64,000 bases of DNA from Leisingera sp. NJS204 (lineage in GTDB: Bacteria > Pseudomonadota > Alphaproteobacteria > Rhodobacterales > Rhodobacteraceae), in NCBI RefSeq assembly GCF_004123675.1, contig NZ_CP035417.1:3277501-3341500 (forward strand). Reading direction: 5' to 3'. The position numbers were made by a program, and so were the translations under genes. The first letter of the stretch is position 1. Each line of letters opens with the position of its first letter. The notes below the pieces were generated by a model. The model worked only from the letters and a program-made list of their open reading frames with translations. It was not told the origin of the DNA and ran no database searches. Shown here piece after piece: positions 10,335 to 25,554 of this stretch.

Positions 10335-10883
10335 CTAGCGCAAAACCAACGGGAGAAGCAGGAAAGGGGTTGCTCCCATGAGCAGGAACAGGGTCCACTT
10401 TCCCGACGACGACACCTTGTAGCGGTGCAGAAACCAGGCGACGCAAGCCACCCCCAATCCGGCCTCCGCGATGGTTCCGGCCACAGGTGCGACCACCCAA
10501 AGCTGTAATCCGAACTCCGCCGTGTCCGGCCCGTGAAAATTGTGGGGATAACCCGTTACAAGATCACAAAGCTCATGGAGGATGACCAAACCAAAGCACC
10601 AGGCTGTCACCACCCAGTTTCTGAAGAAGATGTAAACCAGAAATCCCGCTGCCAACGCCCAGCCGAGCACGGGCAGCAAATCGTGACTGTACCGCATATC
10701 TATGGTCGCACTGCCGATAGCCGGCAAGATTGAGTCTCCAAGCTCTACCTGTTCTGCACCTGTGAAGACGAATATCAACATCAAGTAGTCGATGCCCTGC
10801 GCTACAAGGAGATAAAGCCAGATCGGTCCTTTCGGAGCCTCAGCCTTTGCCACCAGTGCGGTTGCGTAATGGCCGGAGATCAT
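10335..10883 (-). CDS. Multi-spanning membrane protein of unknown function
   Basis: A 182-residue inner-membrane protein with about five hydrophobic segments. Its conserved-looking polar residues sit near the membrane: GHYATAL at the N-terminus, GIDYL, RYSHDLLP, and ILHELCDLVTGYPH. The arrangement of His/Asp recalls the YdjM/DUF457-type membrane-bound metal-dependent hydrolase group, but I do not claim the family. Its start codon overlaps the stop codon of the 32-residue peptide gene (ATGA), which implies translational coupling, and it is followed closely by the alpha/beta hydrolase. Confidence 0.75.
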   Translation of the reverse strand: MISGHYATALVAKAEAPKGPIWLYLLVAQGIDYLMLIFVFTGAEQVELGDSILPAIGSATIDMRYSHDLLPVLGWALAAGFLVYIFFRNWVVTAWCFGLVILHELCDLVTGYPHNFHGPDTAEFGLQLWVVAPVAGTIAEAGLGVACVAWFLHRYKVSSSGKWTLFLLMGATPFLLLPLVLR

Positions 10884-10978
10884 TTGCGTTCCCCTTTGTT
10901 CACAACGGATACGGTTGCAACAAAGAGAATGATGTACAGAACGATTACTCCCGCTAACTGGATGTAAAGTATATTCAT
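10880..10978 (-). CDS. Small single-span membrane protein, 32 aa
   Basis: A very short gene. ATG 10978 is preceded by a purine-rich ribosome binding site (GGAAAGAGG, a few bases upstream). The product begins MNILYIQLAG, has one hydrophobic span of about 20 residues, and ends VVNKGERK with positive charges that suggest a cytoplasmic C-terminus. The stop overlaps the ATG of the next membrane protein gene (ATGA). No family recognised; by position it may be a small partner subunit of the 182-residue membrane protein. It is the first gene of the operon that runs to the enoyl-CoA hydratase. Confidence 0.75.
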   Translation of the reverse strand: MNILYIQLAGVIVLYIILFVATVSVVNKGERK

Positions 10979-11040
10979 GGATTACCTCTTTCCTGAACTA
11001 AATTTCCCCACTTCTAAATATCGCTATCTGGCGTTGATGT

Positions 11041-11060
11041 TGCCCCCCTAACGGGTGGTG
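11041..11060. promoter_or_regulatory. Poly-C/poly-G palindrome, candidate LAL-regulator operator (site A)
   Basis: TGCCCCCCTAACGGGTGG, 63 bases upstream of the 32-residue peptide gene. It is the weakest of six or so similar sites in the island and fits a C-tract, 4-7 base spacer, G-tract pattern. Confidence 0.5.
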
Positions 11061-11146
11061 GATCTGTGCCGGCCGCAATCGGACGAGGCTTTTTTTGTTA
11101 GGGTCTCAGGATCAAGATTCGCGAATGAGCAGTGACGGTGTTTGAT

Positions 11147-11425
11147 TCTAGGCCGTGTTAACAAAAGGGTTTCACAATGTGGGCTGAACGTGATTCAGGC
11201 GGGTATCTGCGACGGAGACCAGCTTGGCACGAGACCTGATGCCGGACGAGGATTGGGCGTTCTTTGAGCGGTTCATCCTGACAGCCCGCGCCCAGAACGG
11301 ATGCAAACCCACCGGCCACCGCCTTGTTCTTGATGAGTTTTTCTAGATTGCCCGCACCGGGCCACCGTGGCGCGAGTTTCCTGCAGACTTCGGAAAATGG
11401 TCATCCGCTCCATCTAACCGAATGG
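11147..11425 (+). mobile_element. Remnant of a second IS5-family element (transposase 5' end)
   Basis: From TTG 11224 the plus strand reads LARDLMPDEDWAFFERF, then NGCKPTGHRLVLDEFF, an in-frame TAG at 11344 where the family normally has Trp, and IARTGPPWREFP with FGKWSSAP. This is the N-terminal region of an IS5-family (IS427-like) transposase. Similarity ends near 11425, so only a 5' fragment survives. The bases upstream from about 11147 look like the matching IS end. It is not closely related to the other IS5 remnant in this window. Confidence 0.8.
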
Positions 11426-11663
11426 GTTCGCGAAGTGAAACCTGCATGGGCAGAGGTCTGCAACAACGCCCATCGGGTGCCTCACTCGTGATCACGTGTC
11501 CCTAACCTGACGAACATCGTCGAATGTAATGCCCCGAAAGTAGGCGCTGTCGGTTTGACGCCGAGCAAAGCGTGAGATCGCCAAAGCAACTTTCCGAAAA
11601 TACCTCGATAGATATTTTCGGAAAAATCAACGTGATCAATTCACCGCCAGACAGGGTATGGCG

Positions 11664-11909
11664 TCACTTCTTGGTGGGTTCCGTTACGTCGATCACGCCA
11701 CCGAACATGGACCTAAGCCATTCGGGGTTTACACTTGCTGAATTCATCCACTTTTCCATAAGCGCTGCTGGCGACATTTTCTTAATTTCGACTTCCATCT
11801 TCTTGTTCATGTCCTCAAGCCAAGCATCCTGCATTGGTTTGATTTCCGGCATCCCGAGAAATTCCCGCAATTCAGCTGGCGAGCAATCGGCTTCGACAGA
11901 TAGTTTCAT
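11664..11909 (-). CDS. DUF6489-like small protein
   Basis: An 81-residue soluble protein, MKLSVEADCSPAELREFLG at the N-terminus, followed by a helix with LEDMNKKMEVEIKKMSP and a C-terminal PEWLRSMFGG. From memory this layout (a DCTPEEAR-like start, then a Met-rich helix) matches the DUF6489 family, whose function is unknown. It stands alone between an IS remnant and the FadL gene, with a plausible AAGAAAG box upstream of the ATG. The lower GC content than the surrounding core genes fits an accessory origin. Confidence 0.7.
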   Translation of the reverse strand: MKLSVEADCSPAELREFLGMPEIKPMQDAWLEDMNKKMEVEIKKMSPAALMEKWMNSASVNPEWLRSMFGGVIDVTEPTKK

Positions 11910-12209: not shown

Positions 12210-13400
12210 TCAGAATTTGATATCCAGCCCCAGTTTGGCGACGAAGATGGCGTCATTACCAATGGAATAGCGGATCTCGGGTGGAGTAGACCGGGCCGTT
12301 CCGGAGCTTTGGAAGTTTACCGCACCGCCAAATGTCACAGCAGCATTCTCCGCGATCTGGTACCGCGCGCCTCCGCCGACCGTCCAGCTCTCCTTGGTCG
12401 GGGTCCAACCAGTGGAGGTGGACGAATCCCACTTGACGAAGGCGCTGAGGCCTAACTTGTCGTTGACCCGGCGAGCGACACCTACTCTCGCGCTCCAGCC
12501 ATCCTTAAGGCGGGGGCTGTATTCGGCGATCTGGGTGCCTGCACCGCTCAGAAAGATCGGAAAATCACCCCAGGCACTCCATTCCTGCCATTTCAAATCA
12601 GCCTGCACCAGCCAGCCAGGGGCAACCCCGGATTGCAGCTTCAGCTCAAGGCTCTGCGGGACCGGGAGATTGACATGGATCGCCCGCCGGCTCAGTTCGG
12701 CCCCGCTCGACCCGATGACGAAATCTCCGCGAAGCCGAACATCAGACTCGCTGGTATACAGGAGCAGCACGCGAAAGGCTTTTTCGGGCAACTCGTAAGC
12801 CAGCCCGGCCTGCCAGCTCAGCGCGGTATTCGAACCGCCAAAATCTAGCGCCGAGAAGGTTTCGGCCGTGGTGCCCGGTACAACGCCGGCGGCCAGGTTC
12901 TGGGTCCTGATCGCATCGCCCTTCACCGCGCCGACACCGGCGATAAAGCGAAGCGCCCCCTTTGCTAGAGGATGGCGGTAGGAGCAGGCGGTGCGTATCT
13001 GCCGCATGTTGATTTCGAAGTCGATGACCTTGAAGCGGCCCTGCCAGCCCGGTGAGAAATGGGCGTTGACATTCAGCGGCTCGTTGTAGCCGAACAGGCA
13101 ACCGATCCGGTCGGTAAGGTCCATCTTCACGGAGCCCTCGAAGATAATCAGGTTTTCAGCGGGGTCGCTTGTCCGTGCGCCAGTGGTCACCGGTGCGCCG
13201 GTGCGATCGACAGCGCTTTGCACGGTGAACTTGCGTGTGGGCACGACGAATGTTGTCGAGAATCCCGCCGAGTTTCCCGGTGTGAACAGACGGTCAACCG
13301 ACGGCGACGTGCGCTCGAAGCCTGCGGCCCATGCTTGGGTGGCAGACAGTGCCCCCGCCAGAACGATAGCGGGCAGGCTAAGTATCCGGTTTTCGAGCAT
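12210..13400 (-). CDS. FadL/OmpP1/TodX-family outer membrane transporter
   Basis: A 396-residue outer-membrane beta-barrel protein of the FadL family, which moves long-chain fatty acids and other hydrophobic compounds across the outer membrane. ATG 13400 has an AGGAG box upstream and gives a clear signal peptide (LSLPAIVLAGALSATQAWA, cut before AGFERTSPS). The mature protein shows alternating amphipathic strands, WSARVGVARRVNDKLG and YQIAENAAVTFGGAVNF type blocks, and ends with a C-terminal Phe (AKLGLDIKF), the usual outer-membrane assembly signal. It lies 74 bases downstream of the acyl-CoA dehydrogenase on the same strand, probably the same transcript. Confidence 0.9.
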   Translation of the reverse strand: MLENRILSLPAIVLAGALSATQAWAAGFERTSPSVDRLFTPGNSAGFSTTFVVPTRKFTVQSAVDRTGAPVTTGARTSDPAENLIIFEGSVKMDLTDRIGCLFGYNEPLNVNAHFSPGWQGRFKVIDFEINMRQIRTACSYRHPLAKGALRFIAGVGAVKGDAIRTQNLAAGVVPGTTAETFSALDFGGSNTALSWQAGLAYELPEKAFRVLLLYTSESDVRLRGDFVIGSSGAELSRRAIHVNLPVPQSLELKLQSGVAPGWLVQADLKWQEWSAWGDFPIFLSGAGTQIAEYSPRLKDGWSARVGVARRVNDKLGLSAFVKWDSSTSTGWTPTKESWTVGGGARYQIAENAAVTFGGAVNFQSSGTARSTPPEIRYSIGNDAIFVAKLGLDIKF

Positions 13401-13474
13401 TTTCCAACTCCTGCGATGCCATATTCCAGTACAGGCGTCCGGGTGCATCGCGGCCCGCTGCCAGTCAATTTTGT

Positions 13475-14656
13475 TTAGACGAAAGCGCTGGTCCCGGTCA
13501 GGGCGCGGCCGACGATCAAGGTGTTGATCTCACGCGTGCCTTCGTAGGAATAGATCGCCTCGGCGTCGGCGACGAAGCGGCCGACCTGCTCTTCCAGCAG
13601 AATGCCGTTGCCGCCAAGAAGCTCTCGCGCCAGACCAACCGTCTCGCGCGCCGAACTTGTACAATAAGCTTTGGCAAGCGATGCCTGTTCCTCCGAGCAG
13701 CCGCCCTCGTCAATCAACGCCGACAGGCGATGGCAGAGGGTCATCGACGTGGTGATCCCGCTCAGCATCCGCACCAGCAGATCCTGGACCAGCTGAAAGC
13801 CACCGATCGGCCGTCCGAATTGCTCCCGGCGCTTGGCGTAGGCGAGGGCGTGTTCGAAGGCACCGAGCGCGCATCCTGTCGCCTGCCAGGCGACATAGGC
13901 GCGGGTCAGGCGCAGCACCTTGGCGGTGTCGGCGAAACTGTTGGCGTTCGTCAGCTTGTTCTCATCGGGTATGCGGCAGTCGTCGAGCGTGATCATCGCG
14001 TTCTGCACCACACGCAGCGCGATCTTGTCTTGCATCACTTCGGTGGAATAGCCGGGGGTTCTCTTCTCGACGACGAAGCCCTTGACCTGATTGTCCGTGA
14101 CGTCGCGCGCCCAGATAACGTTGACGTCGGCGAAACTTGCGTTTCCGATCCATCGCTTCCGGCCGTTCAGCACCCAATTGCCGCCGTCACGCCGCGCTGT
14201 CGTCTGCAAGCCCCCGGCCGCCGCCGAGCCGACCTCGGGCTCGGTCAGGCCGAACGATCCGATCTTCTCGAGCCTGGCCATGGCCGGAAGCCAGCGCTGG
14301 CGTTGTTCCTCCGAGCCACAAAGATAGATCGATGCCGCACAAAGCCCGCCATGGACCCCCAGGAAAGTCGCCATCGATGGATCGGTTCGGCCGACCTCAA
14401 GCGCGATAAAGCCCTCGAGCAGGGCGGATCGGCCACGAAACCCGTATCCCTTGTAGGAAACACCCACGATACCGAGCTTGGCAATCTCTGGAACCAGCTC
14501 GTGCGGGAAGCTCGCGCGGGTCCAATGGTCGTTGATGACCGGGGCGACCTGGTCGATCATCAGGGTGCGCAAATCTGCAAGCAGCGCCTGATCCTCTGTC
14601 GGCAGCGTGTAACGAAGCGCGTAGAAGTCTCCTGGCCAGGCGTCTGCGTTGGTCAT
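13475..14656 (-). CDS. Acyl-CoA dehydrogenase (glutaryl-CoA dehydrogenase-like branch)
   Basis: A 393-residue FAD enzyme that forms a 2,3-double bond in an acyl-CoA. ATG 14656 (MTNADAWPGDFYALRYTL) has a GGGGGA box upstream; the longer open frame would include the operator-rich intergenic DNA. Motifs visible: FGLTEPEVGSAAAG (FAD/substrate loop), WVLNGRKRWIGN, and the C-terminal EAIYSYEGTREINTLIVGRAL, where the Glu of YEGT corresponds to the catalytic base of glutaryl-CoA dehydrogenases. The ligand specificity cannot be settled by eye. It is divergent from the LAL regulator gene, with two G-tract sites between them. Confidence 0.9.
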   Translation of the reverse strand: MTNADAWPGDFYALRYTLPTEDQALLADLRTLMIDQVAPVINDHWTRASFPHELVPEIAKLGIVGVSYKGYGFRGRSALLEGFIALEVGRTDPSMATFLGVHGGLCAASIYLCGSEEQRQRWLPAMARLEKIGSFGLTEPEVGSAAAGGLQTTARRDGGNWVLNGRKRWIGNASFADVNVIWARDVTDNQVKGFVVEKRTPGYSTEVMQDKIALRVVQNAMITLDDCRIPDENKLTNANSFADTAKVLRLTRAYVAWQATGCALGAFEHALAYAKRREQFGRPIGGFQLVQDLLVRMLSGITTSMTLCHRLSALIDEGGCSEEQASLAKAYCTSSARETVGLARELLGGNGILLEEQVGRFVADAEAIYSYEGTREINTLIVGRALTGTSAFV

Positions 14657-14726
14657 GTGAATCCCCCTTGTAACGTCCAACCGGCTGATCGGTATTATGG
14701 TGCATTCTGATGATCCGCCGGTATGA

Positions 14727-14772
14727 TGCCCCCCACAAAGGGGGGGTCGCGATTTTACGGATGGGGGGTTAG
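14727..14772. promoter_or_regulatory. Poly-C/poly-G sites in the acyl-CoA dehydrogenase / LAL regulator divergent promoter (sites B1, B2)
   Basis: B1 is CCCCCCACAAAGGGGGGG at 14729-14746, a near-perfect palindrome about 75 bases from the dehydrogenase ATG. B2 is ATGGGGGGTTAG at 14761-14772, about 115 bases before the regulator start. MalT, the archetype of this regulator class, recognises GGGGA(T/G)GAGG boxes, so G-tracts are a plausible target of the regulator encoded next door. Confidence 0.6.
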
Positions 14773-14883
14773 CGGTGGCTAGGGCCGGCAAACATGCCTG
14801 AGATTTTCCGGACGCCTGCACGCCCGCCCGGAGTTTGACACAAGGCAAGTATCCAACCATCTTGATACCGAGGGAGTTCTCTA

Positions 14884-17412
14884 GTGCGAAATACGCAGAA
14901 GTTTTCTCCGCCGCGGGGGCGATCGGAATTCATCCTACGTGAGGCGGCATACTCCAGGCTGCTCGACTCCGACCTGTCGTTGCTGGTCGCACCGCCTGGC
15001 TACGGCAAGACGAGCCTGCTTTCACACCTATGGCGAAATGAGCGCGGGCGCGATGGTGCAACTGTCGCGTGGCTCACCGTCAATAAGACAGACGAAGCCC
15101 AGGGGATGTTCCTGCCATCGCTTGAAAATGCTGTCATGATGGCACTCACGGTCGCAGGGCGGCCCGGTCCTGGCAGGCTCGCCCGAGGCTGGAGCAACGC
15201 GCGAAACCTTGCTGACGCACTTACTGCCGAGGCCATCCGGGCCGATCGGGACGTGCGTTTGATCATCGATGACATCCATCTGCTACAAGACCCGGAATCG
15301 CTGGATGCAATTACACATATTGCCCGTCGTGGGGCGATCAGCCTGGCGCTGGCTGGCCGAATGCTTCCTGAGGCGCTTGAAATTCCGTGGGCGGGCGCCG
15401 CGTTGATGAGCGCCGAGGATCTGCGCCTTGATCTTGAGGAAACCCAGACCCTGTTTGAACGCTTGACCGGCGGCCAGGTTCCGCACGACCACGCGATATA
15501 CAGCATGACCGAGGGCTGGCCTGCCGGCGTCGCGTTAATCGCACTCGGTGTAAAGTGTTCGACCGTGGCCGCATCGGCCGGCCAAGATCCTGAGTCCGGC
15601 TATCTCAGCAGCCTGTGTGACAGCTTTTCACCGGATGAACTGGACCGCCTGTCGCGGCTGTCGATCTTCTCGAGCTTTACACCGGACATAGCGGCTTTGG
15701 TGATAACCGATACACCGATTGATCCTTTCTTCGAGGAAGTCGTCTTACGCTGTCCGCTGGTTGAGCGCTGGGGCGACGCCAGTGTCATGCGGTTTCACCC
15801 GATGCTGCAGGAGCATTTTGCGACACTCCTTGCACAAAAGGGCGAGCACGCGCTGACCGGGCTCCATGCGAAAGCCTCCGCGGGGCTGTTGCAGATGGGT
15901 AAGTGGCACGAAGCAGTGCACCATGCGTTTTGTGCGGGCCGTCCCGAGCGAGCCGGTGCGATCATTCTCGATCATGCCCGGGAATTGCTGAGTGACGGCA
16001 GTCTGCCGCTACTGCTGCAATTCCTGGAGCGCATCCCCGAAGGATACCGCGTGGACGATCCCCGCATGCAGCTGCTTGAGGCATGGGTATACTCGATGAC
16101 CCACAAAGCACCGAAAGCACTGCGTATTCTGGACCAGATCAAAGACCCTGAGGCGGTCGATCCGGTTTTCGCGACTGAGTTGCAGGTGGTGCGCGCTGTA
16201 GCGCTGATCGTGGTCGAGAAAATCGACGCCGCGAGAGAGACGGTCCGCCAGATCACGGACGATGCGGTCTGCACCGAACGTTGGGTTCGTGAGGTCCTGC
16301 GCAACATTGAAAGCTATCTGAACTTTAGATCTGGAGCTTTCGCCCAGGCGCGCACCGTACCCGATTGCACGCTGCCGATTAAGCGGACTTACCAGCTTGT
16401 GTTCTCTGCCATGTCCTGGGCCGAGCAGGGCCGTTTGAGCGCGGCGCATCGCCAGTTTGAGAGAGAGTTCAAGCAGGCTCGAATTTCCTTCCCCGACGAT
16501 TCGGCAATTGGCGCGGTGATCTACGCGTTCCATTCCGCCATCCTGTTTGCCCGGGGCGACCACGAGGCGATCGTCGAGCGCCATTTCCGCTATGAGGCCA
16601 TAATCCGCGAAGCCTGTCCGCTTGATGCCCTGCGATTGTCGACCATTGCACGGGCGCGGGTCGATGCCGCAGCCGGCTTCTTCGATATTGCGCAGGATCG
16701 GCTGGAAACTGTTGTTGCCTTGGCGCGAGAACGCAGCTGGCACCGGCTTGATGCCGCCTGCTGCGCCGAGCGGGCGCGGCTCTGGATGCAGCAGGGCGAT
16801 CTTGCCGCCGCGCAACGGCTTTTAAAGCGGCTAGAGCTCATAGCCGATCGGGACCGGATCGACGCCTCGGCGATGAAAGAAATTCGCGTATCTATCGATA
16901 CGACCCGGATCAGGCTCGATATCCTGTCCGGCCAAGCCGGGCAGGCCGCGATTGCCGCCGAGAAGATGCTCGACGATTTCATGGCCACCGGCTTTATCTT
17001 CCGCGCCACGCGTATGCGGCACCTGCTTGGCGTCGCCCTTCTGGCTGCAGATGAAAGGATTCGCGCGACACAGGTGCTTGGTTCGCTGCGCAGCTGGGCC
17101 AATGACGAGCAGGCGGAGGCTGTTCTAACGCTTGAACCGCCCTTCTCGGCAAGCCATTTTCACAAGCACGCGCCGTCCGCAGACAGCGGCAGGAATGAGC
17201 CGCATGACCAGCTAAATCCACGCGAGCACGACGTGATCAAGCTGGCTGCGACAGGCCGGACGAACAAAGAGATCGCACGCGGACTTGACGTCAGTCCCGA
17301 GACGGTCAAATGGCATCTGAAGAACATTTACAGCAAGCTTCACGTTAACAACCGCGTCGAAGCCATCGCCAAGCTTCACCGTATTGACGTAGGTGTCAGC
17401 AAGACTGGCTGA
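14884..17412 (+). CDS. LAL-type (MalT-like) ATP-binding LuxR-family transcriptional regulator
   Basis: An 842-residue large LuxR-type activator. The N-terminal ATPase has Walker A APPGYGKTS (36-44) and Walker B LIIDDIH (126-132), followed by a MalT-like winged-helix and a long TPR-like helical middle. The C-terminal LuxR HTH (about 778-838) reads LNPREHDVIKLAATGRTN, then KEIARGLDVSPETVKWHLKN. The start is GTG 14884, with GAGGGAG some 10 bases upstream. Such regulators are switched on by a ligand (maltotriose for MalT) plus ATP, then oligomerise on repeated sites. Its position amid FadL, acyl-CoA dehydrogenase and aldehyde dehydrogenase, and the G-tract palindromes at each island promoter, make it the likely activator of the island; the inducer is unknown. 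Confidence 0.92.
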   Translation: MRNTQKFSPPRGRSEFILREAAYSRLLDSDLSLLVAPPGYGKTSLLSHLWRNERGRDGATVAWLTVNKTDEAQGMFLPSLENAVMMALTVAGRPGPGRLARGWSNARNLADALTAEAIRADRDVRLIIDDIHLLQDPESLDAITHIARRGAISLALAGRMLPEALEIPWAGAALMSAEDLRLDLEETQTLFERLTGGQVPHDHAIYSMTEGWPAGVALIALGVKCSTVAASAGQDPESGYLSSLCDSFSPDELDRLSRLSIFSSFTPDIAALVITDTPIDPFFEEVVLRCPLVERWGDASVMRFHPMLQEHFATLLAQKGEHALTGLHAKASAGLLQMGKWHEAVHHAFCAGRPERAGAIILDHARELLSDGSLPLLLQFLERIPEGYRVDDPRMQLLEAWVYSMTHKAPKALRILDQIKDPEAVDPVFATELQVVRAVALIVVEKIDAARETVRQITDDAVCTERWVREVLRNIESYLNFRSGAFAQARTVPDCTLPIKRTYQLVFSAMSWAEQGRLSAAHRQFEREFKQARISFPDDSAIGAVIYAFHSAILFARGDHEAIVERHFRYEAIIREACPLDALRLSTIARARVDAAAGFFDIAQDRLETVVALARERSWHRLDAACCAERARLWMQQGDLAAAQRLLKRLELIADRDRIDASAMKEIRVSIDTTRIRLDILSGQAGQAAIAAEKMLDDFMATGFIFRATRMRHLLGVALLAADERIRATQVLGSLRSWANDEQAEAVLTLEPPFSASHFHKHAPSADSGRNEPHDQLNPREHDVIKLAATGRTNKEIARGLDVSPETVKWHLKNIYSKLHVNNRVEAIAKLHRIDVGVSKTG

Positions 17413-17413
17413 C

Positions 17414-17478
17414 TGCCCCCCCGTTCGTGGGGGTCCTGTTGTCCAGCAGACCTTTACCTCTAGGGGGGAACAAACCCC
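17414..17478. promoter_or_regulatory. Poly-C/poly-G sites before the aldehyde dehydrogenase (sites C1, C2)
   Basis: C1, CCCCCCCGTTCGTGGGGG at 17416-17433, starts 4 bases after the regulator stop codon. C2, GGGGGGAACAAACCCC at 17463-17478, has the tracts in reverse order. Both lie within 80 bases of the aldehyde dehydrogenase ATG. C1 could alternatively act as a hairpin, but it has no T-run behind it. Confidence 0.55.
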
Positions 17479-17492: not shown

Positions 17493-19406
17493 ATGAATGA
17501 TGAAGATGACAAAATCAGGCGGTTGAAAGAAGCATTCGCGACCTTGCAGCGCGGCTACGAGGTAGAGCGTTGCCCGACCGTGACTGTCCGCCGAGATCGG
17601 CTGTATCGACTGGCGGCGATGCTCAACAAATACGAGACCCGGCTGATCGAGGCGATGTCAGATGACTTCGGACACCGCTCGCATCACGAGTCTGCGATGT
17701 TCGACATCGTACTCTCGCTCAGCGAGATCGGGGACTGCCGGCGCCATGTGCGAAAGTGGATGCGTCCGCGGCGGGTCCCCACCCGGTTTCACCTGCGCCC
17801 GGCAAAAAGCCGGATCATCCCCCAACCGCTTGGTGTGGTCGGCGTCATGACACCGTGGAACTTCCCGGTCTATCTTGGCATCGGTGGCGTCGCAGATGCC
17901 ATTGCTGCGGGTAATCGCGTGCTGCTTAAGCCGAGTGAGCTGACACCGGCCACGAGCGAGGTGCAGGCGGAAGCCATCGCCGAGTTCTTCGCTCCCGACG
18001 AGTTCAATGTTGCGATAGGCGGTGTCGAAGTCGCCCAGGCGTTCAGCGATCTGCCTTTCGATCACATCCTTTTCACCGGATCTACGGCTGTGGGCCGCAA
18101 AGTGGCCGAGGCCGCGGGACGGAACCTGACTCCGGTCACGCTGGAGCTTGGCGGCAAGTCGCCTGCCCTTGTCACGCCCTCGGCAAGGCTCGGCAAGGCA
18201 GCCCGCTCGATCGCCCATGCAAAACTGGCCAATGCTGGGCAGATCTGCATTGCGGCGGATTACGTGCTGGTCCCCGAGGCGATGCGCAAGGATTTCGTGC
18301 ATGAGTTAGGCGCCTGCATGACCAAGCTTTACCCGACCTATTCGGACAATCCGGATTATACGGCGATCGTCAGCGATACCCATTTCGAGCGCCTTGGGCA
18401 GCTGGTCGATGATGCGGTCGCGGGTGGCGCCAATGTCATCAGGCCGCATCACGATGGGCCGGCTACGACGCGGAAGTTTCCGCCCACCATCCTCACCGAT
18501 CTTCCCGAGAATTGCAGGGTAATGCAGGAAGAAATTTTTGGCCCGGTCCTGCCGGTCATCGGCTATGACGGTCTCGACGATGCCATTGCCAGGATCAATG
18601 GACGTGATCGGCCACTGGCGCTTTATGTATTCTCAGAGTCCTCGTCGGACCGCGATCGTGTATTGGCAGAAACGGTCTCGGGCGGTGTCGTCATCAATGA
18701 TTGCCTCTGGCACGTTCCAAACGACAGTTTGCCCTTCGGCGGTGTGGGCGCCAGCGGTATGGGGGCCTATCACGGCCGCGCCGGATTCGATGCAATGTCC
18801 AAGCTCAAACCCGTGATGTACCAGTCGCGCCTCAGCGCAACGTCGTTGCTATATCCGCCCTTTCGGGCACCGGACCGAGAAGTTAGGGCGTTTGCTGCGC
18901 CGGATCATTTGATCGAAAAGGCTATGCTGCACTGCAGCAATTTACTGCTGCATTGCAGCATAGCTTTTGCTATAGTGCTATTAGCAAGTGGAAAACCCGT
19001 CGAAAAGGAACCTGATATGACAAAACATACTAGCAAGACATGTTCGACCAGCCTTACCACACTGGAAGAGTCCGTAGGACGTGATGCCGCGCAGGATTCC
19101 GTGAGCCGGACCCTCGGCGCAGTGACCGCCACTGGTCGCGCTCTGTTTGACGGCGTGATTGCGTTCGACCGGGCGCTGCTCGGTTCCACCAAGGTTGCCT
19201 TTACCGACACGATGAACCACGGTCGCGAGTCGCTGCGCGCCAAGAATGTTCACTGCCTGCTTGAGCTTCAGGCGCAATTCGTCAAACATCGCTACGAGAC
19301 GGTGAACCTCCAGGCCACGGAACTTTCCGAACTGACCCGGACGCAGCTTGCGACTGCATGGGAACAGCTTCGTGATATCGGCGGGACCAAAAACAAGCCG
19401 GCCTGA
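17493..19406 (+). CDS. Coniferyl-aldehyde-dehydrogenase-like ALDH running in frame into a phasin (fused ORF)
   Basis: The first 480 or so residues are an NAD(P)-dependent aldehyde dehydrogenase of the coniferyl aldehyde dehydrogenase branch: VMTPWNFPVYL, LLKPSELTP, FTGSTAVGRKV, the catalytic Glu in VTLELGGKSP, the catalytic Cys in NAGQICIAADY, EEIFGPVLPV, and the family ending LPFGGVGASGMGAYHGR with SLLYPPF. Family members stop shortly after this. Here no in-frame stop occurs: the frame passes through the phasin promoter, where it encodes a hydrophobic run of about 30 residues, and continues as the complete phasin to 19406, giving 637 residues from ATG 17493. Whether a fusion protein is really made is unknown; the phasin also has its own operator, ribosome binding site and ATG 19017. 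The ALDH would oxidise an aldehyde intermediate to the acid for CoA activation. Confidence 0.85.
   Translation: MNDEDDKIRRLKEAFATLQRGYEVERCPTVTVRRDRLYRLAAMLNKYETRLIEAMSDDFGHRSHHESAMFDIVLSLSEIGDCRRHVRKWMRPRRVPTRFHLRPAKSRIIPQPLGVVGVMTPWNFPVYLGIGGVADAIAAGNRVLLKPSELTPATSEVQAEAIAEFFAPDEFNVAIGGVEVAQAFSDLPFDHILFTGSTAVGRKVAEAAGRNLTPVTLELGGKSPALVTPSARLGKAARSIAHAKLANAGQICIAADYVLVPEAMRKDFVHELGACMTKLYPTYSDNPDYTAIVSDTHFERLGQLVDDAVAGGANVIRPHHDGPATTRKFPPTILTDLPENCRVMQEEIFGPVLPVIGYDGLDDAIARINGRDRPLALYVFSESSSDRDRVLAETVSGGVVINDCLWHVPNDSLPFGGVGASGMGAYHGRAGFDAMSKLKPVMYQSRLSATSLLYPPFRAPDREVRAFAAPDHLIEKAMLHCSNLLLHCSIAFAIVLLASGKPVEKEPDMTKHTSKTCSTSLTTLEESVGRDAAQDSVSRTLGAVTATGRALFDGVIAFDRALLGSTKVAFTDTMNHGRESLRAKNVHCLLELQAQFVKHRYETVNLQATELSELTRTQLATAWEQLRDIGGTKNKPA
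18927..18958. promoter_or_regulatory. Tandem PhaR-type operator and promoter of the phasin gene
   Basis: Two copies of CTGC-N3-GCAG: CTGCACTGCAG at 18927-18937 and CTGCATTGCAG at 18948-18958. Centres are 21 bases apart, two turns of the helix on one face. TGC-rich palindromes of this type are the known targets of the PHB-sensing repressor PhaR in Rhodobacter and Paracoccus. A likely -10 element, TATAGT, follows near 18971, and the phasin ATG is at 19017. The block lies inside the open frame of the aldehyde dehydrogenase tail. Confidence 0.75.
19017..19406 (+). CDS. phaP: Phasin (PHA granule-associated protein)
   Basis: A 129-residue helical protein starting MTKHTSKTCSTS at ATG 19017, with AAAAGGA about eight bases upstream. 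The body has phasin-family features: amphipathic helices with TLGAVTATGRALFDGVIAFD, SLRAKNVHCLLELQAQFVKH and ELTRTQLATAWEQL. Phasins coat PHA granules, control their size and displace PhaR from DNA. The PhaR-type operator just upstream and the convergent phaC/phaZ operon support the call. The same frame also continues upstream into the aldehyde dehydrogenase. The gene ends at a strong bidirectional terminator. Confidence 0.85.
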   Translation: MTKHTSKTCSTSLTTLEESVGRDAAQDSVSRTLGAVTATGRALFDGVIAFDRALLGSTKVAFTDTMNHGRESLRAKNVHCLLELQAQFVKHRYETVNLQATELSELTRTQLATAWEQLRDIGGTKNKPA

Positions 19407-19432
19407 ACCGGCCGGTCGCACAGGAACTGAAG

Positions 19433-19462: not shown

Positions 19463-19463
19463 T

Positions 19464-20717
19464 TCAGCCAGCGGCTCCTGCAAGTAATCCCTCGACACCG
19501 TGAAGAAGGCCGCCGAGGCAGGCACCGAGCGCGGCACCGTTGAGCCGGATGAATTGCAGATCGCGTCCGACCTCGGCCTCGAAGCGCGAGATCAGCAGTT
19601 CGCTATCCCATTCCGCGATGGTCTGCTCGACATAACGGCCGATCACAGGGCGCAACTCCAGGACGATGCTTTCTGCCGCGCCTATGGCGGACGCCTCAAG
19701 GCGTTCTATCGCTTCAGGATCGCTGCGCATCTCGCCTGCGGTTCGCAGAAAGGCCCGCTCAAGCCGCTTCTCCAGCGTGCCATCATGCGCGGCCAAAACC
19801 GTCTTTCGTTCGATCTGCCGCAGCAGCCCCCGGATCCGTTCGCCAAAGCTGTTCGTCCCGGACAATTCGGCAAGGGCGTCGTGCAGCGCGTTTTCCAACC
19901 TGCCCGACTCCGAAAGACGGGCGACGACATCGTTTACCGCGTCCTCAAAGCCAAGACGAAGCTGCGAATTCGGCTCGGACATCTCGTCTATCACCGACAA
20001 CACCCCGTCGACAACGGTGTTAGCCGCTATCCGGTCGACCTGCGACGAAATCCACCAGCGGCTTCTATCCTGAACGATCTGGAGAGCAACCTCGCGATTC
20101 TCGTCGATCGACTCGCGCACCAGGGCCAGCGTGGCATCGAGGATCCCGCCTTTGGCGCCTGCCTTGATCAGGGTGCTTGCGACGTCGGCCAGCGCCCGTG
20201 CTGATGCGGGATCCGACACGGTGTTCCGGACCAGATCAATCACGGCATTCTCGAACGGGCGCAGCAACGGCTTCGGCGCGTCCGAGCCGAGCAGCCGCGC
20301 GACCCGGCGCGCAATCATGCGGGCACCGCCTTCATTCTCGATCCACACGAGTCCCCGTTTGACCAGATCGGCTGCCGTCATCTTTTCGACCAATCGCCGC
20401 GGTTCCAGGAAATGCTCTTCGATAAAACGGCCAACCGAAGTGGCGACCCGCGCTTGGTTCCGCGGCAAGAGCGCCGTATGGGGGATTGGCAGCCCGAGCG
20501 GCCGTCGGAACAGCGCCTCGACAGCGAACCAATCAGCGAGCCCGCCTATTATGCCTGCCTCGGACATCGCCCGGACGGTCATGACCCATCCCGCCGGTGT
20601 GCCGCCGAAAAAGGTAGCCGAGTAGGTCAAGGCAAGAACGGCGAGCGTACCGGTGGCGAACCGGCGCAGGCGGGTTAACCCGGCTCGGCGGAGGGCTTCG
20701 TCGGGTTTGGGTCGCAT
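19464..20717 (-). CDS. DUF445 family membrane protein (YjiN-like)
   Basis: A 417-residue protein from ATG 20717 (MRPKPDEALRRAGLTRLRRF). The N-terminus has a hydrophobic span with LAVLALTYSATFF, and the DUF445 hallmark follows: SEAGIIGGLADWFAVEALFRRPLG, LPIPHTALLPRNQARV and GRFIEEHFLEP (each a separate block of the same region). A long helical middle and a last hydrophobic segment (LGACLGGLLHGVEGLLAGAAG) complete it. The function of the family is unknown; it is thought to be an inner-membrane or membrane-tethered protein. Its start overlaps the end of phaZ by about 40 bases, so it is the last gene of the phaC operon. A role in PHA is not established. Confidence 0.85.
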   Translation of the reverse strand: MRPKPDEALRRAGLTRLRRFATGTLAVLALTYSATFFGGTPAGWVMTVRAMSEAGIIGGLADWFAVEALFRRPLGLPIPHTALLPRNQARVATSVGRFIEEHFLEPRRLVEKMTAADLVKRGLVWIENEGGARMIARRVARLLGSDAPKPLLRPFENAVIDLVRNTVSDPASARALADVASTLIKAGAKGGILDATLALVRESIDENREVALQIVQDRSRWWISSQVDRIAANTVVDGVLSVIDEMSEPNSQLRLGFEDAVNDVVARLSESGRLENALHDALAELSGTNSFGERIRGLLRQIERKTVLAAHDGTLEKRLERAFLRTAGEMRSDPEAIERLEASAIGAAESIVLELRPVIGRYVEQTIAEWDSELLISRFEAEVGRDLQFIRLNGAALGACLGGLLHGVEGLLAGAAG

Positions 20718-21559
20718 GAGGAATTCTCGGCTGGTTTCTGCCGGATATCGTTGAAGAAGCTCATCATCAGGGCGGCCACGTCTTCCCGCAGTGTCATCAT
20801 GAAGAGGTGTCCGCAACCGATGATTTCAAGCCTGGCGTCGCGTAGCCGGCTGGTCAGGATCCTGCCGTTGACCGGGGGCAGGATGGGATCGTCAGCCCCC
20901 ATCATCACCAGAGCCGGCGCCTCGATCCGCGGCAGCCAGTGCCAACTTGTCCAGCCACTGGCTGCCATGAGCTGATACAGATAGCCCCGTGCATTTGCAC
21001 CCGAGAGCGAATCGACATGCTGCCGTAAAAAGGGCGTGCTCTCTTGCACCAGGCCACCATAAAGTTTCGGACCGACCTTCATCATGTGTTCAGGGTCCGA
21101 ATAGCGCCGCGGGCGGGCCAGTTCGAGCAAGACGCGCGGATCGCCAGGAACGGCAACGATACCGGTTGAGGTTGCGGCCAGAACCAGCGACCGGGTGCGC
21201 GCCTTGTGGCGGTAGGCAAAGGTCTGCGCCAGACCGCCTCCCCAAGAGACGCCGAAAACATGGGCGCGCTTGATGTCCAACTCGTTAAGAAGATGTGCGC
21301 TCAAATCGGCCAGAGTCGAAAACCGGTAAGGCAGCAAAGGGGCTGGCGAACTGCCGACGCCCGGCGCATCAAAAGTGATCGTCCTGATTGACGGGAAGGC
21401 CTGCATGAAGCTGGCAGCGGCCTCGATCGGAGCGCCGATGCCGTTGAACAAGAGCAGTGTCTCGTCGGCATCAACCGGCCCGGCTTCGGCGACGCGAAGA
21501 ACCTGACTGCCAAGGCGGAGCGTGCGCAAACGGAGCGCTTTTATGCCGGAGTTATTCAC
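20675..21559 (-). CDS. phaZ: Intracellular medium-chain-length PHA depolymerase PhaZ
   Basis: A 294-residue alpha/beta hydrolase that I recognise as close to the Pseudomonas intracellular mcl-PHA depolymerase: LLLFNGIGAPIE, TFDAPGVGSSPAPLLPYRF, the nucleophile Ser105 in GVSWGGGLAQ, VPGDPRVLLELARPRRY, SGWTSWHWLP, Asp in GADDPILP (223/224) and His251 in GCGHLFM. It cuts stored polyester to 3-hydroxy acids in the cytoplasm on the granule surface. Its ATG overlaps the phaC stop (ATGA), the same phaC-phaZ order as in pseudomonads, where they also sit together. High confidence because both the family and the partner agree. Confidence 0.9.
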   Translation of the reverse strand: MNNSGIKALRLRTLRLGSQVLRVAEAGPVDADETLLLFNGIGAPIEAAASFMQAFPSIRTITFDAPGVGSSPAPLLPYRFSTLADLSAHLLNELDIKRAHVFGVSWGGGLAQTFAYRHKARTRSLVLAATSTGIVAVPGDPRVLLELARPRRYSDPEHMMKVGPKLYGGLVQESTPFLRQHVDSLSGANARGYLYQLMAASGWTSWHWLPRIEAPALVMMGADDPILPPVNGRILTSRLRDARLEIIGCGHLFMMTLREDVAALMMSFFNDIRQKPAENSSCDPNPTKPSAEPG

Positions 21560-23199
21560 GCTTCGATCCGCACATAGGTTCCGGGCGCCTCATCCAACGG
21601 CGGATATTCCTTTGAGCCGGGTTGTTTTGGCGCCTCTGTCTTCTTGCCGGAACGCTTTTCAAGCCACTTAACCCAGTATGGCCACCAGCTCCCTTCATTT
21701 TGTTTGGCACTTTCCTTGAACGTCTCCGGGGAGTCGCCCGTCGCACCGGTGTAGAAGGCCGTCTTCTTATTGCCGGGCGGGCTCACGATCGACTGGACAT
21801 GCCCGCTGTTGGTGAGCACAAAATCGGTTTTTCCGCCAAGCAATCCAGTGGTGCGATAGCACCCTTCCCAAGGCGTGATGTGGTCGGTCTCGCCGCCGAG
21901 TACAAAGGCATCGCAGGTGACCCGCGACAGGTCAATCGAGCGGCCGCCGATCTCGACCGTGCCCGGCCGCGCCAGCCCGTTCGATTCGAGAATTCCGACG
22001 AAATCGCCATGCAGGCCTGAGGTCATCCGCGTGACGTCAGTGTTCCAGTAGAGCAGGTCGAAGGCGGGCGGTGACTCGCCCATCAGATAGTTGTTGACCC
22101 AGTAGCTCCAGATCAGTTCGTTTGGCCTGAGCCACGCAAAAACCTTGGCAAGATCGCGCCCTTCCAGAACCCCCTGGGATCCCGAGGCGGCTTTGGCGAG
22201 CTCCAGCGTGTCGAGATTGGCGAAAAGACCCATCGACGTGTCGGCGATCTCGTCTGTATCGAGGATCGTAACCATCAAGGTCAAACTGCGCACACGATCG
22301 ACACTGTCGGCCGCGTAGGCGCCGAGCAGCGCCGCCGTGGTGATACCGCCCGAACAGGCCGCCGCAAGATGAACCTGCTCAGACCCGCTGATCGCGCTGA
22401 CAGTATCAACCGCCCGTTCAAGTGCCGCCACGTAACCGTCCAGGCCCCACTCAGCCTGTTTGGCGTCCGGGTTGAACCAGCTGACGATGAACACCTGGAA
22501 GCCGCTGCTGACAAGGAACTCGATAATGCTGCGCTTGGGAGCGAGATCCCAGACATAATATTTGTTGATCTGCGGCGGAACGACCAGTATCGGCGTGCCG
22601 TGAACTTTCTCGGTCTGCGCGGCGTACTGGATCAGTTCGTACTCGGGATCGCGCCGTACGACATTGCCCGGGGTCAGCGCGAGATTCTTGCCGACGGTGA
22701 ACTTGGACTTATCAACCATTGACGGCATGCCGCCGTTTTCCTGCAAATCCTCAAGCATTTGGCGGGCGCCCGTCACCAGATTCTCGCCTCCGGTCTCGAT
22801 GGTGCGCTTCAGCGCCGCCGGGTTGCCGAGCAGTGTGTTGGTCGGCGCGACCGCGTCAAGGATCGAAGAGGTTGCAGTGCTGGCGCGCCCCTCGTCCTTC
22901 GGTGAAAGGTCAAGCGCATTTATCCAACCTTCGATGCCGGCACGCATGGCCAGGTGCCCCTGCATCGCCGTGCGGTAGAACGGATTGCTCTCCCACGCCG
23001 AATCCTGAAAGCGGCGGTCGCCCTTCTCCGGCTGGACGCCGGACTTGCCGGAAAGACTCTTGCCGATTTCGCGGGCGATCTGGCTGATCGCGTCGGTCGC
23101 GGCCCCCGGATTGCTCAATGCCGCGCCGTAGAACCTGAAAAGCGAACGGGTCAGTTCGCCGTGCGGCGCACCGTCATCGTCTTTGTTCCGGATTTTCAT
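21556..23199 (-). CDS. phaC: Class II-like poly(3-hydroxyalkanoate) synthase PhaC
   Basis: A 547-residue PHA synthase that polymerises (R)-3-hydroxyacyl-CoA with release of CoA. Catalytic residues: Cys282 in LAAACSGGITTAALLG, Asp439 in GGETDHITPW and His467 in NSGHVQSIVSPPGN. The box reads A-x-C-x-G-G where pseudomonad enzymes have G-x-C-x-G-G, a conservative change. Other blocks (VVPPQINKYYVWDLAP, FIVSWFNPD, LLYWNTDVTRM) fit the class II (medium chain length) branch from memory rather than the class I PhaC usual in Rhodobacteraceae. ATG 23199 has a TAGGAGGT box. Upstream are the hydratase and ligase genes, downstream phaZ. Confidence 0.92.
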   Translation of the reverse strand: MKIRNKDDDGAPHGELTRSLFRFYGAALSNPGAATDAISQIAREIGKSLSGKSGVQPEKGDRRFQDSAWESNPFYRTAMQGHLAMRAGIEGWINALDLSPKDEGRASTATSSILDAVAPTNTLLGNPAALKRTIETGGENLVTGARQMLEDLQENGGMPSMVDKSKFTVGKNLALTPGNVVRRDPEYELIQYAAQTEKVHGTPILVVPPQINKYYVWDLAPKRSIIEFLVSSGFQVFIVSWFNPDAKQAEWGLDGYVAALERAVDTVSAISGSEQVHLAAACSGGITTAALLGAYAADSVDRVRSLTLMVTILDTDEIADTSMGLFANLDTLELAKAASGSQGVLEGRDLAKVFAWLRPNELIWSYWVNNYLMGESPPAFDLLYWNTDVTRMTSGLHGDFVGILESNGLARPGTVEIGGRSIDLSRVTCDAFVLGGETDHITPWEGCYRTTGLLGGKTDFVLTNSGHVQSIVSPPGNKKTAFYTGATGDSPETFKESAKQNEGSWWPYWVKWLEKRSGKKTEAPKQPGSKEYPPLDEAPGTYVRIEA

Positions 23200-23232
23200 G
23201 AGACCTCCTAGCTGCCGGTAAGGCAGGATCGT

Positions 23233-23700
23233 TTATACGAAGACAAGAGCGAGCGCTTCGGCGAAGACAGCAGGCGCCTCGGCGCCTTCCGCGGCGACGG
23301 TACATGAGGTGCGGACCAGCAAACGGTCGTCGCCTTTCGGTTCAACGCCGGTCAGCGTGACGCTGACCCGGACTGTGGCACCGGCCGGGACGGCGCCGGT
23401 AAAACGAACCTTGTCCAGCCCGTAATTCATCACCCCCGAGGCGTCGCCGGGAAAAACACCGATCTCCTGCAAAGCTGACGCGATCAGCGACAGGCAGAGA
23501 AACCCGTGAGCAATCGGGCCACCGAACGGGCTTTCACGCTCTGCCCGCTCGACGTCGACGTGGATCCACTGCTGGTCTTCAGTACAATTTGCAAAAGCAT
23601 TGATACGGGCCTGGTCGATCACGATCGGCGCGCTCGCGCCAAACTCGTGTCCGACGTGTCCGGCCATCGTAGCAAGTGAATATCCTTCTGGAATCGCCAT
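23233..23700 (-). CDS. MaoC-like (R)-specific enoyl-CoA hydratase
   Basis: A 155-residue hot-dog-fold hydratase from ATG 23700 with GAGGAG upstream. The hydratase 2 motif is visible: NCTEDQQWIHVDVERAERES, then PFGGPIAHGFLCLSL, with Asp and His of the catalytic pair in EDQQWIH. Such enzymes convert trans-2-enoyl-CoA to (R)-3-hydroxyacyl-CoA, the substrate of PhaC, so it would serve as a PhaJ equivalent that links beta-oxidation to polymer. It lies between the acyl-CoA ligase (12-base gap) and phaC (33-base gap). NodN-type dehydratases share the motif, so the physiological substrate is inferred from context. Confidence 0.87.
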   Translation of the reverse strand: MAIPEGYSLATMAGHVGHEFGASAPIVIDQARINAFANCTEDQQWIHVDVERAERESPFGGPIAHGFLCLSLIASALQEIGVFPGDASGVMNYGLDKVRFTGAVPAGATVRVSVTLTGVEPKGDDRLLVRTSCTVAAEGAEAPAVFAEALALVFV

Positions 23701-23711
23701 GATGCCGCTCC

Positions 23712-25346
23712 TCAATCGAGCTTCTGCAGTTCGCGCCGCAGAATCTTGCCAACCGTGGATTTCGGCAATTCGTCAACAAAGCGCACCTGACGCGGAACTT
23801 TGTAGCCCGCCAACGCATCGCGGCATTGTTCGATCACGCTGTCTTCGGTGAGATCGGCGCCGTCTTCCTTGACGATGTAGAGCCGGACCAATTCGCCGGT
23901 CTTCTCGTCCGGCACGCCGACAGCGGCACATTCGAAAACACCCGGAAAGCCTGCAACGGCCGCCTCGATCTCGTTGGGGTAAACGTTGAAGCCCGAGACG
24001 AGGATCATGTCCTTCTTGCGATCGACAATCGAAAGATACCCCTCGTCGTCGAACACGCCGATGTCACCGGTGCGGAAGAAGCCGTCAGCCGTGAACGACT
24101 CGGCGTTGGCATCGTCACGGTTCCAGTAGCCGCTCATCACCTGTGGCCCGCGGGCGCAGACCTCACCCGGCTCGCCGCGCGGCGCTTCGGTTCCGTCATC
24201 GCGCAAGAGCTTGATTTCGGTCTCTGGCAGCGGCATGCCCACCTTGCCCGAAAATCCCTGCTTGCCCATCGGGTTCAACGTCAGGATCGGCGAAGTCTCG
24301 GACAGGCCATAGCCCTCGAGGATATCGGCACCGGTGATTTTGCGCCATTTCTCCGATGTCGAGGACAACACCGGCGCACCGCCGCCGATCGCAACCCGGT
24401 AGTTCGAGAAATCCAGCTTGCCGAATTCGGGATGCTGCAACATGCCGCCGAACAGCGTGTTCACACCGGTGATGACGCTGAAGGGATGCTTCTTCATGGT
24501 TTCCATGAACTCGCCCATGTCACGCGGATTGGCGATAAGCACGTTCTTGGCGCCGACCGAGAAGTAGCTGAGCAGATTCAAGGTCAGGGCAAAGATGTGA
24601 TAAAGCGGCAGAGCCGTAATGACGGTTTCCTTGCCCGGGCGCAGCGCGTCCGCCGCGAACGCCTTGAATTGTTCGGAATTGGCGATGAGGTTCCTATGGC
24701 GCAGTACAGCACCCTTGGCGAACCCGGTGGTGCCGGCAGTGTATTGCAGATAGATCATGTCGTCGCGGCTCAATTCGACATGTGTGAAGGTGCTTTGTGC
24801 GCCTTCGGCCAGCGCATCCATGAAACGGATGGGGTTCGGAATGCCGGGATCAACCTCCGGGCTCTTGATATCCTCGCCGGTGCAATCGCCCATGTCGACG
24901 GTAATCACAGATTTGACAGACGTGTCGCCTAGAGCCTTTACCAGCGTGGCGGTCGAGCCACCGTAAATAACAATGGCCTCCACACCCGCATCGTTCAGTT
25001 GATGCGTCAATTCCGTCGCTGTGTAGAGCGGGTTGATGTTCACCTGTACACCACCGGCTCGCATTACCCCCATCATCGCAACCGGGAAGGCAAGCAGGTT
25101 TGGCGTCATCATAGCCACCCGGTCACCCTTCTTCAGGTTCAGCTTTGTCTGCAGGAAGGCAGCGAAGTCCCTGGAAAGTTTGTCGACCTCACCAAAAGTG
25201 AGCGAACTTGACAGGCTGTGGAACGCGGTTTTGTCCTTGTAGCGCTCCATCGCCGTCTCGATCATATCAACGACCGTTTCGTAGGCTTCGGTATTGATTT
25301 TAGTCGGCACATTCTCTGGATAGAATTGCTCCCAGAAACGAGGCAT
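23712..25346 (-). CDS. Long-/medium-chain acyl-CoA ligase (FadD-like, AMP-forming)
   Basis: A 544-residue adenylate-forming enzyme that activates a carboxylic acid to its CoA thioester at the cost of ATP to AMP. Start ATG 25346 (MPRFWEQFYPENVP). Motifs: P-loop YTAGTTGFAKGAV, with Ala in place of the usual Pro; YGLSETSP; the hinge FRTGDIGVFDDEGYLSIVDR; and the C-terminal catalytic Lys in PKSTVGKILRREL. It is the first gene of the operon ligase-MaoC-phaC-phaZ-DUF445, divergent from the DUF3604 operon, with two G-tract sites between. It probably supplies acyl-CoA from the imported substrate. Confidence 0.9.
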   Translation of the reverse strand: MPRFWEQFYPENVPTKINTEAYETVVDMIETAMERYKDKTAFHSLSSSLTFGEVDKLSRDFAAFLQTKLNLKKGDRVAMMTPNLLAFPVAMMGVMRAGGVQVNINPLYTATELTHQLNDAGVEAIVIYGGSTATLVKALGDTSVKSVITVDMGDCTGEDIKSPEVDPGIPNPIRFMDALAEGAQSTFTHVELSRDDMIYLQYTAGTTGFAKGAVLRHRNLIANSEQFKAFAADALRPGKETVITALPLYHIFALTLNLLSYFSVGAKNVLIANPRDMGEFMETMKKHPFSVITGVNTLFGGMLQHPEFGKLDFSNYRVAIGGGAPVLSSTSEKWRKITGADILEGYGLSETSPILTLNPMGKQGFSGKVGMPLPETEIKLLRDDGTEAPRGEPGEVCARGPQVMSGYWNRDDANAESFTADGFFRTGDIGVFDDEGYLSIVDRKKDMILVSGFNVYPNEIEAAVAGFPGVFECAAVGVPDEKTGELVRLYIVKEDGADLTEDSVIEQCRDALAGYKVPRQVRFVDELPKSTVGKILRRELQKLD

Positions 25347-25452
25347 AGCGATCTCCCTATTTTGGTCTCCTGTGCATCGGGCGGATGCCCAAGCGACTTT
25401 AGAGGCTACGGTTTTTCTACAAGGCCAAGCTATGCGACGGATCAGTAGAGCA

Positions 25453-25554
25453 GGCACCCCACATATGGGGGGGTAGCCGGCCAGCTGCGGCGGCGCGTCT
25501 GGAAACGAGCAAGCAATCACTGCTGTTGCGGATGCCACCCTTACGGGGGGTGTG
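25453..25554. promoter_or_regulatory. Poly-C/poly-G sites in the ligase / DUF3604 divergent promoter (sites D1, D2)
   Basis: D1 is CACCCCACATATGGGGGGG at 25455-25473, about 110 bases upstream of the ligase ATG. D2 is CCACCCTTACGGGGGGTG at 25535-25552, about 147 bases upstream of the DUF3604 ATG. Each therefore faces one of the two divergent operons. The pattern matches sites A-C. Confidence 0.6.

Follow-up and report, generated by a model that had tools for sequence, protein, structure and literature searches.

Poly-C/poly-G palindromes as candidate operators of a LAL regulator in a fatty-acid and polyhydroxyalkanoate gene island of Leisingera sp. NJS204

Do the short C and G runs that recur in front of a cluster of fatty-acid genes belong to a single regulatory circuit? 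We addressed this question in a 64,000-nucleotide stretch of Leisingera sp. NJS204 (contig NZ_CP035417.1, positions 3,277,501 to 3,341,500), henceforth referred to as the window. An island of acyl-CoA and polyhydroxyalkanoate (PHA) genes spans 8.4–29.5 kb of the window, and inverted C-run/G-run repeats lie upstream of several of its operons. The palindromes of the island are real and mark promoters. Judging from sequence comparisons, they probably serve as operators for the LAL regulator, whose gene lies among them.

Candidate sites in the island

We denote each site by the lengths of its C run, spacer and G run. A loose setting required runs of at least 3, a sum of at least 9 and a spacer of 3–7, and a strong setting required runs of at least 4 and a sum of at least 10. 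An earlier note on this DNA had listed seven sites, and the described sequence is present at all seven places: three strong palindromes, two imperfect ones, one lone G6 run and one site in reversed order. The strong palindromes are C6-ACAAA-G7 (6-5-7, 14729..14746), between the acyl-CoA dehydrogenase and LAL genes; C7-GTTCGT-G5 (7-6-5, 17416..17433), immediately 3' of the LAL stop codon and ~69 bp upstream of the aldehyde dehydrogenase start; and C4-ACATAT-G7 (4-6-7, 25457..25473), ~119 bp upstream of the ligase start. The lone second G6 run (14763..14768, forward strand) follows the first of these by 16 nt, and the reversed-order site G6-N6-C4 (17463..17478) may be an extra G6 half-site. One imperfect palindrome, C6-N4-G3 (6-4-3, 11043..11055), lies ~71 bp upstream of a 32-residue membrane peptide, the first gene of a hydrolase/enoyl-CoA hydratase operon, and relatives give it no support. 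The other, C3-TTAC-G6 (3-4-6, 25538..25550), lies ~155 bp upstream of the DUF3604 gene, with no clear support from relatives. The statement that the window holds no such site elsewhere was nearly right, the additions being a 6-6-3 site at 36099, found at the loose setting, and a 4-5-4 site at 56071.

Of the six loose palindromes in the window, five fall within four promoter regions of the island that total 826 bp and that were picked after the sites had been noticed; simulation gave a mean of 0.28, and five were reached in none of 2000 runs. We also compared the island with the whole 5.04-Mb genome, which is 61% GC. Across the genome, C4-N3-7-G5 matches 69 times on the forward and 61 times on the reverse strand, overlapping registers counted, and it occupies three distinct places in the 14.7 kb of the island (expected at most 0.38, P 0.007). 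For the stricter C5-N4-6-G5, the genome gives 21 forward matches, and the island holds the pattern at two distinct places (expected 0.06, P 0.002). Equal density across the genome, which the earlier note had named as telling against its proposal, was not seen: the island is ~8-fold (C4-G5) to 33-fold (C5-G5) denser than the genome.

Recurrence of the palindromes in other genomes

The acyl-CoA dehydrogenase is the clearest case of a recurring palindrome. At E ≤ 1e-115, homologues of the island dehydrogenase are found four times in 385 genomes of the class, namely in the genome itself and in G344, G442 and G550 (G and L numbers are our labels for genomes and loci). In all four, the window included, a strong palindrome lies no more than 300 bp upstream of the gene, versus 2 of 84 other dehydrogenase loci. 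The palindromes at L021 and L154 are flanked by a LAL-type gene and the dehydrogenase, as in the window. This arrangement is that of the genomes G344 and G550; in G550, the LAL-type gene is short, with 558 amino acids, a helix-turn-helix (HTH) as the only domain found by Pfam and one stop within the aligned stretch. At L154 (12594-17379), the short LAL-like protein, in which Pfam finds the HTH only, is followed by a protein of 1024 residues that combines an AAA domain with an OmpR-type HTH. A contig search with a dehydrogenase alignment that contained one row (L032) read in the wrong orientation listed, among the best 80 of 587 matches, mainly dehydrogenases of Actinomycetota and Bacteroidota. 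One of the matches is the 4.3-kb stretch L039, whose dehydrogenase is 80% identical; no palindrome was detected there at the loose setting.

We then scored the upstream regions of LAL genes. The sample comprised 52 entries, minus the duplicates L125-L127 and L009 (upstream region too short), plus the window (n = 49). A strong palindrome occurs within 450 bp upstream of 8 of the 49 LAL genes, versus one for the reversed order, and dinucleotide shuffles gave a mean of 0.56 and a maximum of 3 in 200. Other 450-bp tiles of the same loci carried a strong palindrome in 8 of 972 cases (Fisher P 1.5e-7); because the remainder of the island and of L121 is among these tiles, candidate sites there count among the eight. 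Removing the window and four other loci used to build the LAL search model left 5 of 44 LALs, compared with a simulated mean of 0.44 and a maximum of 2 in 200 runs. By source, palindromes were present in 5 of 10 plasmid records, 2 of 27 LALs drawn from the phylum (simulated mean 0.27, with 2 reached in 3 of 200 runs) and none of 11 drawn from the class. They were also commoner among LALs closer to the model, with 6 of 16 at scores over 600 bits versus 2 of 33 at lower scores, which is in part a product of the model's construction.

Strong palindromes are carried by the window, Bradyrhizobium sp. 184 (L037), Burkholderia pyrrocinia (L036), B. cenocepacia (L121), Phytobacter (L122), Agrobacterium cucumeris (L123), G835 (L124) and G703 (L135). 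G344 (L003, the same as L021) has two sites, neither of which passed the strict setting, one crossing the region edge and the other with a sum of 9, and was scored as no match. The spacer is 5-6 in the strong sites of the island and 3-7 in relatives. CCCCC-GAAT-GGGGG, or a longer-spaced form of it, occurs at L037, L121, L123 and L124, so that GAAT stands within the spacer at several LALs. At L122 and L123, TGAG follows the G run and the right half reads GGGGGGGTGAG. A second G5 run follows the palindrome by 16 and 18 nt in L037 and L156, whose LALs are 80% identical to each other, and the window likewise has its second G6 run. The B. cenocepacia plasmid locus L121 has three strong palindromes (6882, 8703 and 13843) near AMP-ligase, LAL and LysR genes and is a candidate second regulon.

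Sites at PHA operons elsewhere are weaker. The gene order ligase-MaoC-PhaC-PhaZ(-DUF445) recurs, in Pukyongiella without the ligase directly in front, and the phaJ-phaC-phaZ cluster of the island has the same order in L184, L185 and L186. A LAL gene stands beside the PHA operon in Paraburkholderia (L185, L119) and Caballeronia grimmiae (L186); other PHA operons have other regulators, AraC in Bradyrhizobium CB82 (L035) and TetR in Pukyongiella (L184). At Paraburkholderia L185, CCCC-N6-GGGG (4-6-4) lies ~125 bp upstream of the ligase, close to the ~119 bp of the window, and the same site is present in L119. None of 12 PhaC stretches from other genomes, all without a full LAL in the stretch itself, had even a loose site (here runs of at least 3 and a sum of at least 8) within 1 kb upstream of PhaC or the ligase, the ligase being located in 3 of the 12. 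One of the 12, G120 (L218), belongs to the same family as the window and has ligase-MaoC-PhaC-PhaZ-DUF445; its ligase is 53% identical and is preceded by a phasin-like stretch, and its 16 kb contain no strong site. At the PHA loci L188 and L189, neither a LAL match nor a palindrome preceding PhaC was found, and in L188 a 5-7-5 hairpin lies 3' of PhaZ.

The regulator and its recognition helix

The 842-residue product of the gene at 14884..17412 (forward strand) has an N-terminal P-loop/AAA region, a probable MalT-like TPR region and a C-terminal LuxR-type HTH with the recognition helix ETVKWHLKNIYSKL. The HTH matches PF00196 (GerE) with 63.8 bits at residues 776-829. The P-loop matches AAA_22 with 27.6 bits (cut-off 27), and Walker A and B motifs can be read as APPGYGKTSLL and LIIDDIH. 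The TPR region scores 43.4 bits against TPR_MalT, slightly below the cut-off of 45. By its HTH and P-loop, the protein is a LAL. We rejected its identification as MalT itself: the helix reads ETVKWHLKN, versus TTIKTHIRN in eight LALs assigned to the MalT type by their recognition helix, and no maltose gene was found among the 20 proteins scanned.

The regulator was found in 1 of 198 genomes of the family and 1 of 21 genomes of the genus, and a search of genome contigs with the LAL returned no relative. Within the class, 12 of 385 genomes have a match at 1e-20, 11 of them besides its own genome, with 23-28% identity.

We compared the recognition helices of LALs with and without palindromes (n = 49, with L126, L127 and L015 left out). 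A Glu precedes T-V/I-K in all nine palindrome-bearing LALs, L003 counted, versus 10 of 40 others (P 4.5e-5); per unique helix, the counts are 9 of 9 versus 9 of 24 (P 0.0014). Because this position was picked out after the fact and the LAL sequences are related to one another, the association is a lead only. It is possible, and we put this forward tentatively, that a divergent subset of LALs from Alpha-, Beta- and Gammaproteobacteria shares an inverted operator of ~5 C and ~5 G around a short spacer, read by an E-T-V/I-K helix and controlling acyl-CoA/PHA modules.

Genes of the island

The earlier note had also described the circuit as not tied to a known catabolic pathway, which is wrong. The genes constitute a FadL/FadD/acyl-CoA dehydrogenase/PhaJ/PhaC/PhaZ/phasin module, that is, a fatty-acid/PHA module of a known kind. 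The acyl-CoA dehydrogenase (13475..14656, reverse strand) is divergent from the LAL gene, and a FadL/TodX-type outer-membrane protein is encoded at 12210..13448 on the same strand as the dehydrogenase. On the other side of the LAL gene, an aldehyde dehydrogenase with a C-terminal phasin-like domain in the same frame is encoded at 17493..19406 (forward strand); an ATG at 19017, after AAAAGGA, could be a separate phasin start inside this frame.

The PHA operon runs on the reverse strand. It begins with a FadD-type acyl-CoA ligase (23712..25346), followed by a MaoC/PhaJ-type enoyl-CoA hydratase (23233..23715) and a PHA synthase (21556..23199). The synthase is closest to class II: TIGR01839 gives 644 bits, the best among the three classes listed and under the curated cut-off of 855, and the translation holds the active-site Cys in a lipase-like box, AACSGG. 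A PhaZ-type PHA depolymerase follows (20675..21559; TIGR02240, 250.4 bits versus a cut-off of 250.6), and a DUF445 protein (19464..20816) ends the operon. DUF445 also lies 3' of PhaZ in Pukyongiella L184, Paraburkholderia L185 and G120 (L218), a hint that it belongs to PHA metabolism.

Two further operons lie at the edges of the island. On the forward strand, a DUF3604-PPIase-HupE/UreJ operon occupies 25699..29464. We found no LAL at three DUF3604 loci from other genomes, one of which (L019) has a 5-5-4 site near the gene start, inside an annotated reading frame. On the reverse strand, the hydrophobic peptide of 32 amino acids (10880..10978) is the first gene of a likely operon, 10978-8390, and is followed by a 182-residue protein without a Pfam match, an alpha/beta hydrolase and an enoyl-CoA hydratase. 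Just past the 11043 site, 11149-11402 is 76-83% identical to regions of Tritonibacter, Sagittula, Rhodovulum, Gemmobacter and Leisingera plasmids, two of which are annotated as IS5-family transposase, and is likely an insertion sequence remnant. These plasmid matches point weakly to a marine Rhodobacterales host. An 81-residue protein (11664-11909, reverse strand) is 36% identical to a DUF6489 protein adjoining the Pukyongiella PHA cluster. Outside the island, 4194-7073 (reverse strand) encodes RTX calcium-binding repeats and a C-terminal Hint domain.

Evidence against and alternative explanations

Several observations weigh against the palindromes being LAL operators. A strong site is missing upstream of 41 of the 49 sampled LALs, none of the eight MalT-type LALs has an upstream palindrome, and the LALs that bear one share 23-25% identity with that of the window. 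Much of the signal at LAL genes comes from the ten plasmid records, two of which were retrieved for the dehydrogenase. The regulator was found in a single one of 21 genomes of the genus, which left no close relatives for footprinting. The draft genome G442 has the dehydrogenase site and no LAL at E ≤ 1e-25, and L036 and L037, among the 84 other dehydrogenase loci, have a palindrome at the LAL and none at the dehydrogenase. At the Paraburkholderia operons, the 4-6-4 site falls under the strong threshold, the LAL genes have no strong palindrome upstream of themselves, and the ligase, 26-27% identical to that of the island, is not orthologous. Caballeronia L186 shows only a degenerate CCCTC/GAGGG repeat despite the LAL beside its PHA genes. 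The P. mandelii locus L187, with no LAL annotated, has a 4-6-4 palindrome upstream of PhaC, so this weak form is not decisive. A motif-first search found the exact CCCCCGAATGGGGG at 9 places in 299 genomes, near chance, and the one place beside a LAL was already among those found; the palindrome alone thus does not identify LAL targets. The DUF3604 loci L017 and L018 have no such palindrome, and regulon membership of the DUF3604 and small-peptide operons, both with imperfect sites, is unproven. The reading in the earlier note is supported in part. Its link between sites and regulator is supported: the partner is likely the LAL because similar sites occur upstream of some other LALs and of close dehydrogenase homologues, with a weaker one at a LAL-linked PHA operon.

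Three other explanations were weighed against LAL control. The sites could be operators of another regulator, whether AraC, TetR, CsoR-like or unlinked, that merely neighbours LAL genes. We regard this as unlikely, although the site occurs in G442 with no recognisable LAL, and in L154 the dehydrogenase and the LAL-type gene are separated by an AraC gene. No other regulator was seen among the open reading frames scanned between the island sites, and the PHA loci with AraC (L035) or TetR (L184) have no site upstream of the ligase or PhaC. CsoR is known for G-tract pseudopalindromes, and its operators resemble the island sites in this respect. A CsoR/RcnR-type regulator was rejected, since PF02583 was not found in the window genome; the control search was positive in 6 of 14 genomes. 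That the runs are instead RNA hairpins or terminators, or were made by slippage, is improbable. Their C/G stems are perfect and one stands directly after the LAL stop codon. Furthermore, among the matches listed for the window genome, 11 other places comprised, by a crude gene caller, 6 in reading frames, 3 intergenic ones with longer G/C hairpins and 2 not assigned. However, every island site precedes a gene, the majority within two intervals that separate divergent genes, and comparable sites are found at corresponding positions of other genomes despite differing surroundings. The terminator version was rejected, as there is no T tract and the terminator-like list contains no island site.

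That C/G runs arose by chance in a genome of this GC content and were chosen by eye is likewise improbable, although the overall frequency of the pattern would fit this explanation and also weighs against LAL operators. The whole window has six loose C-G palindromes versus a Markov mean of 7.3 (standard deviation 2.5, 30 simulations), and with five sites the reversed order occurs at a similar frequency. The chance-level motif-first search and the absence of palindromes from the class draw of LALs point the same way. Because the frequency in the whole window is ordinary, the signal lies in placement, and there chance does poorly: it fails on the placement of the island sites, on the LAL upstream test with model members removed and on the dehydrogenase test.

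Comparison with known systems

In architecture, the island LAL appears to work like MalT or AlkS. MalT governs several operons, transport among them. The E. coli MalT regulon resembles the island in its LAL architecture, its G-rich half-sites and its single regulator for several operons, and differs in its pathway and in having direct repeats in place of inverted C-run/G-run repeats. The MalT box is given as GGA[TG]GA (PMC9628970), and MalT sites as direct repeats (PMC6099782). The likeness to MalT boxes in the earlier note therefore extends to the G-rich right half at L122 and L123, not to the orientation of the sites. AlkS of Pseudomonas putida GPo1 is described as a LuxR/MalT-type activator with a 20-bp inverted repeat and operators at its own and a catabolic promoter (PMC8784404). 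It is alike in these features and in its hydrophobic substrate, whereas it controls an alkane monooxygenase and the island a PHA module.

The gene content has closer counterparts. The phaC2 cluster of Cupriavidus pinatubonensis JMP134 holds fadE, phaJ, phaP and phaZ with phaC2 (PMC4636328), and so shares the acyl-CoA dehydrogenase, MaoC/PhaJ, phasin, PhaZ and class-II-like PhaC of the island. JMP134 PhaC2 makes short-chain PHA (PMC4636328), so the PHA chain length cannot be read from the synthase class. The group C phaC clusters of Burkholderia sensu lato are a known module of the same kind (PMC8231600). In the available parts of these papers, the word LuxR occurs in neither PMC8231600 nor PMC4636328, and "regulator" does not occur in PMC4636328. 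In the open-licence literature, as judged by titles and the starts of abstracts, we found no poly-C/poly-G LAL operator and no LAL control of phaC.

Proposed mechanism and significance

Binding by the regulator, its action as an activator and not a repressor, and the nature of the ligand are inferred. In the proposed mechanism, the LAL would bind its ligand, most likely a fatty acid, an acyl-CoA or a related aldehyde, together with ATP and then multimerise. Dimers of its LuxR-type HTH would bind the inverted repeats of C and G runs, 4-7 each. From the divergent region, the LAL would activate its own gene together with the acyl-CoA dehydrogenase-FadL operon; through the remaining sites, it would activate the aldehyde dehydrogenase-phasin gene as well as the FadD-PhaJ-PhaC-PhaZ-DUF445 operon. 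FadL would serve uptake, FadD activation, and the acyl-CoA and aldehyde dehydrogenases oxidation, with PhaJ, PhaC, PhaZ and the phasin in storage or mobilisation. Acyl units would thereby be taken up, activated, and stored or mobilised as PHA in coordination.

If the tentative reading of a shared inverted operator and an E-T-V/I-K helix is true, it would provide a binding code for a large regulator family with few operators described, as far as the consulted excerpts of the literature extend. A recognisable C-run/G-run site tied to a subset of LALs would help to read regulons from sequence. In Leisingera sp. NJS204, it would give the genes for PHA, a bioplastic, and for fatty-acid storage a dedicated ligand-controlled activator.

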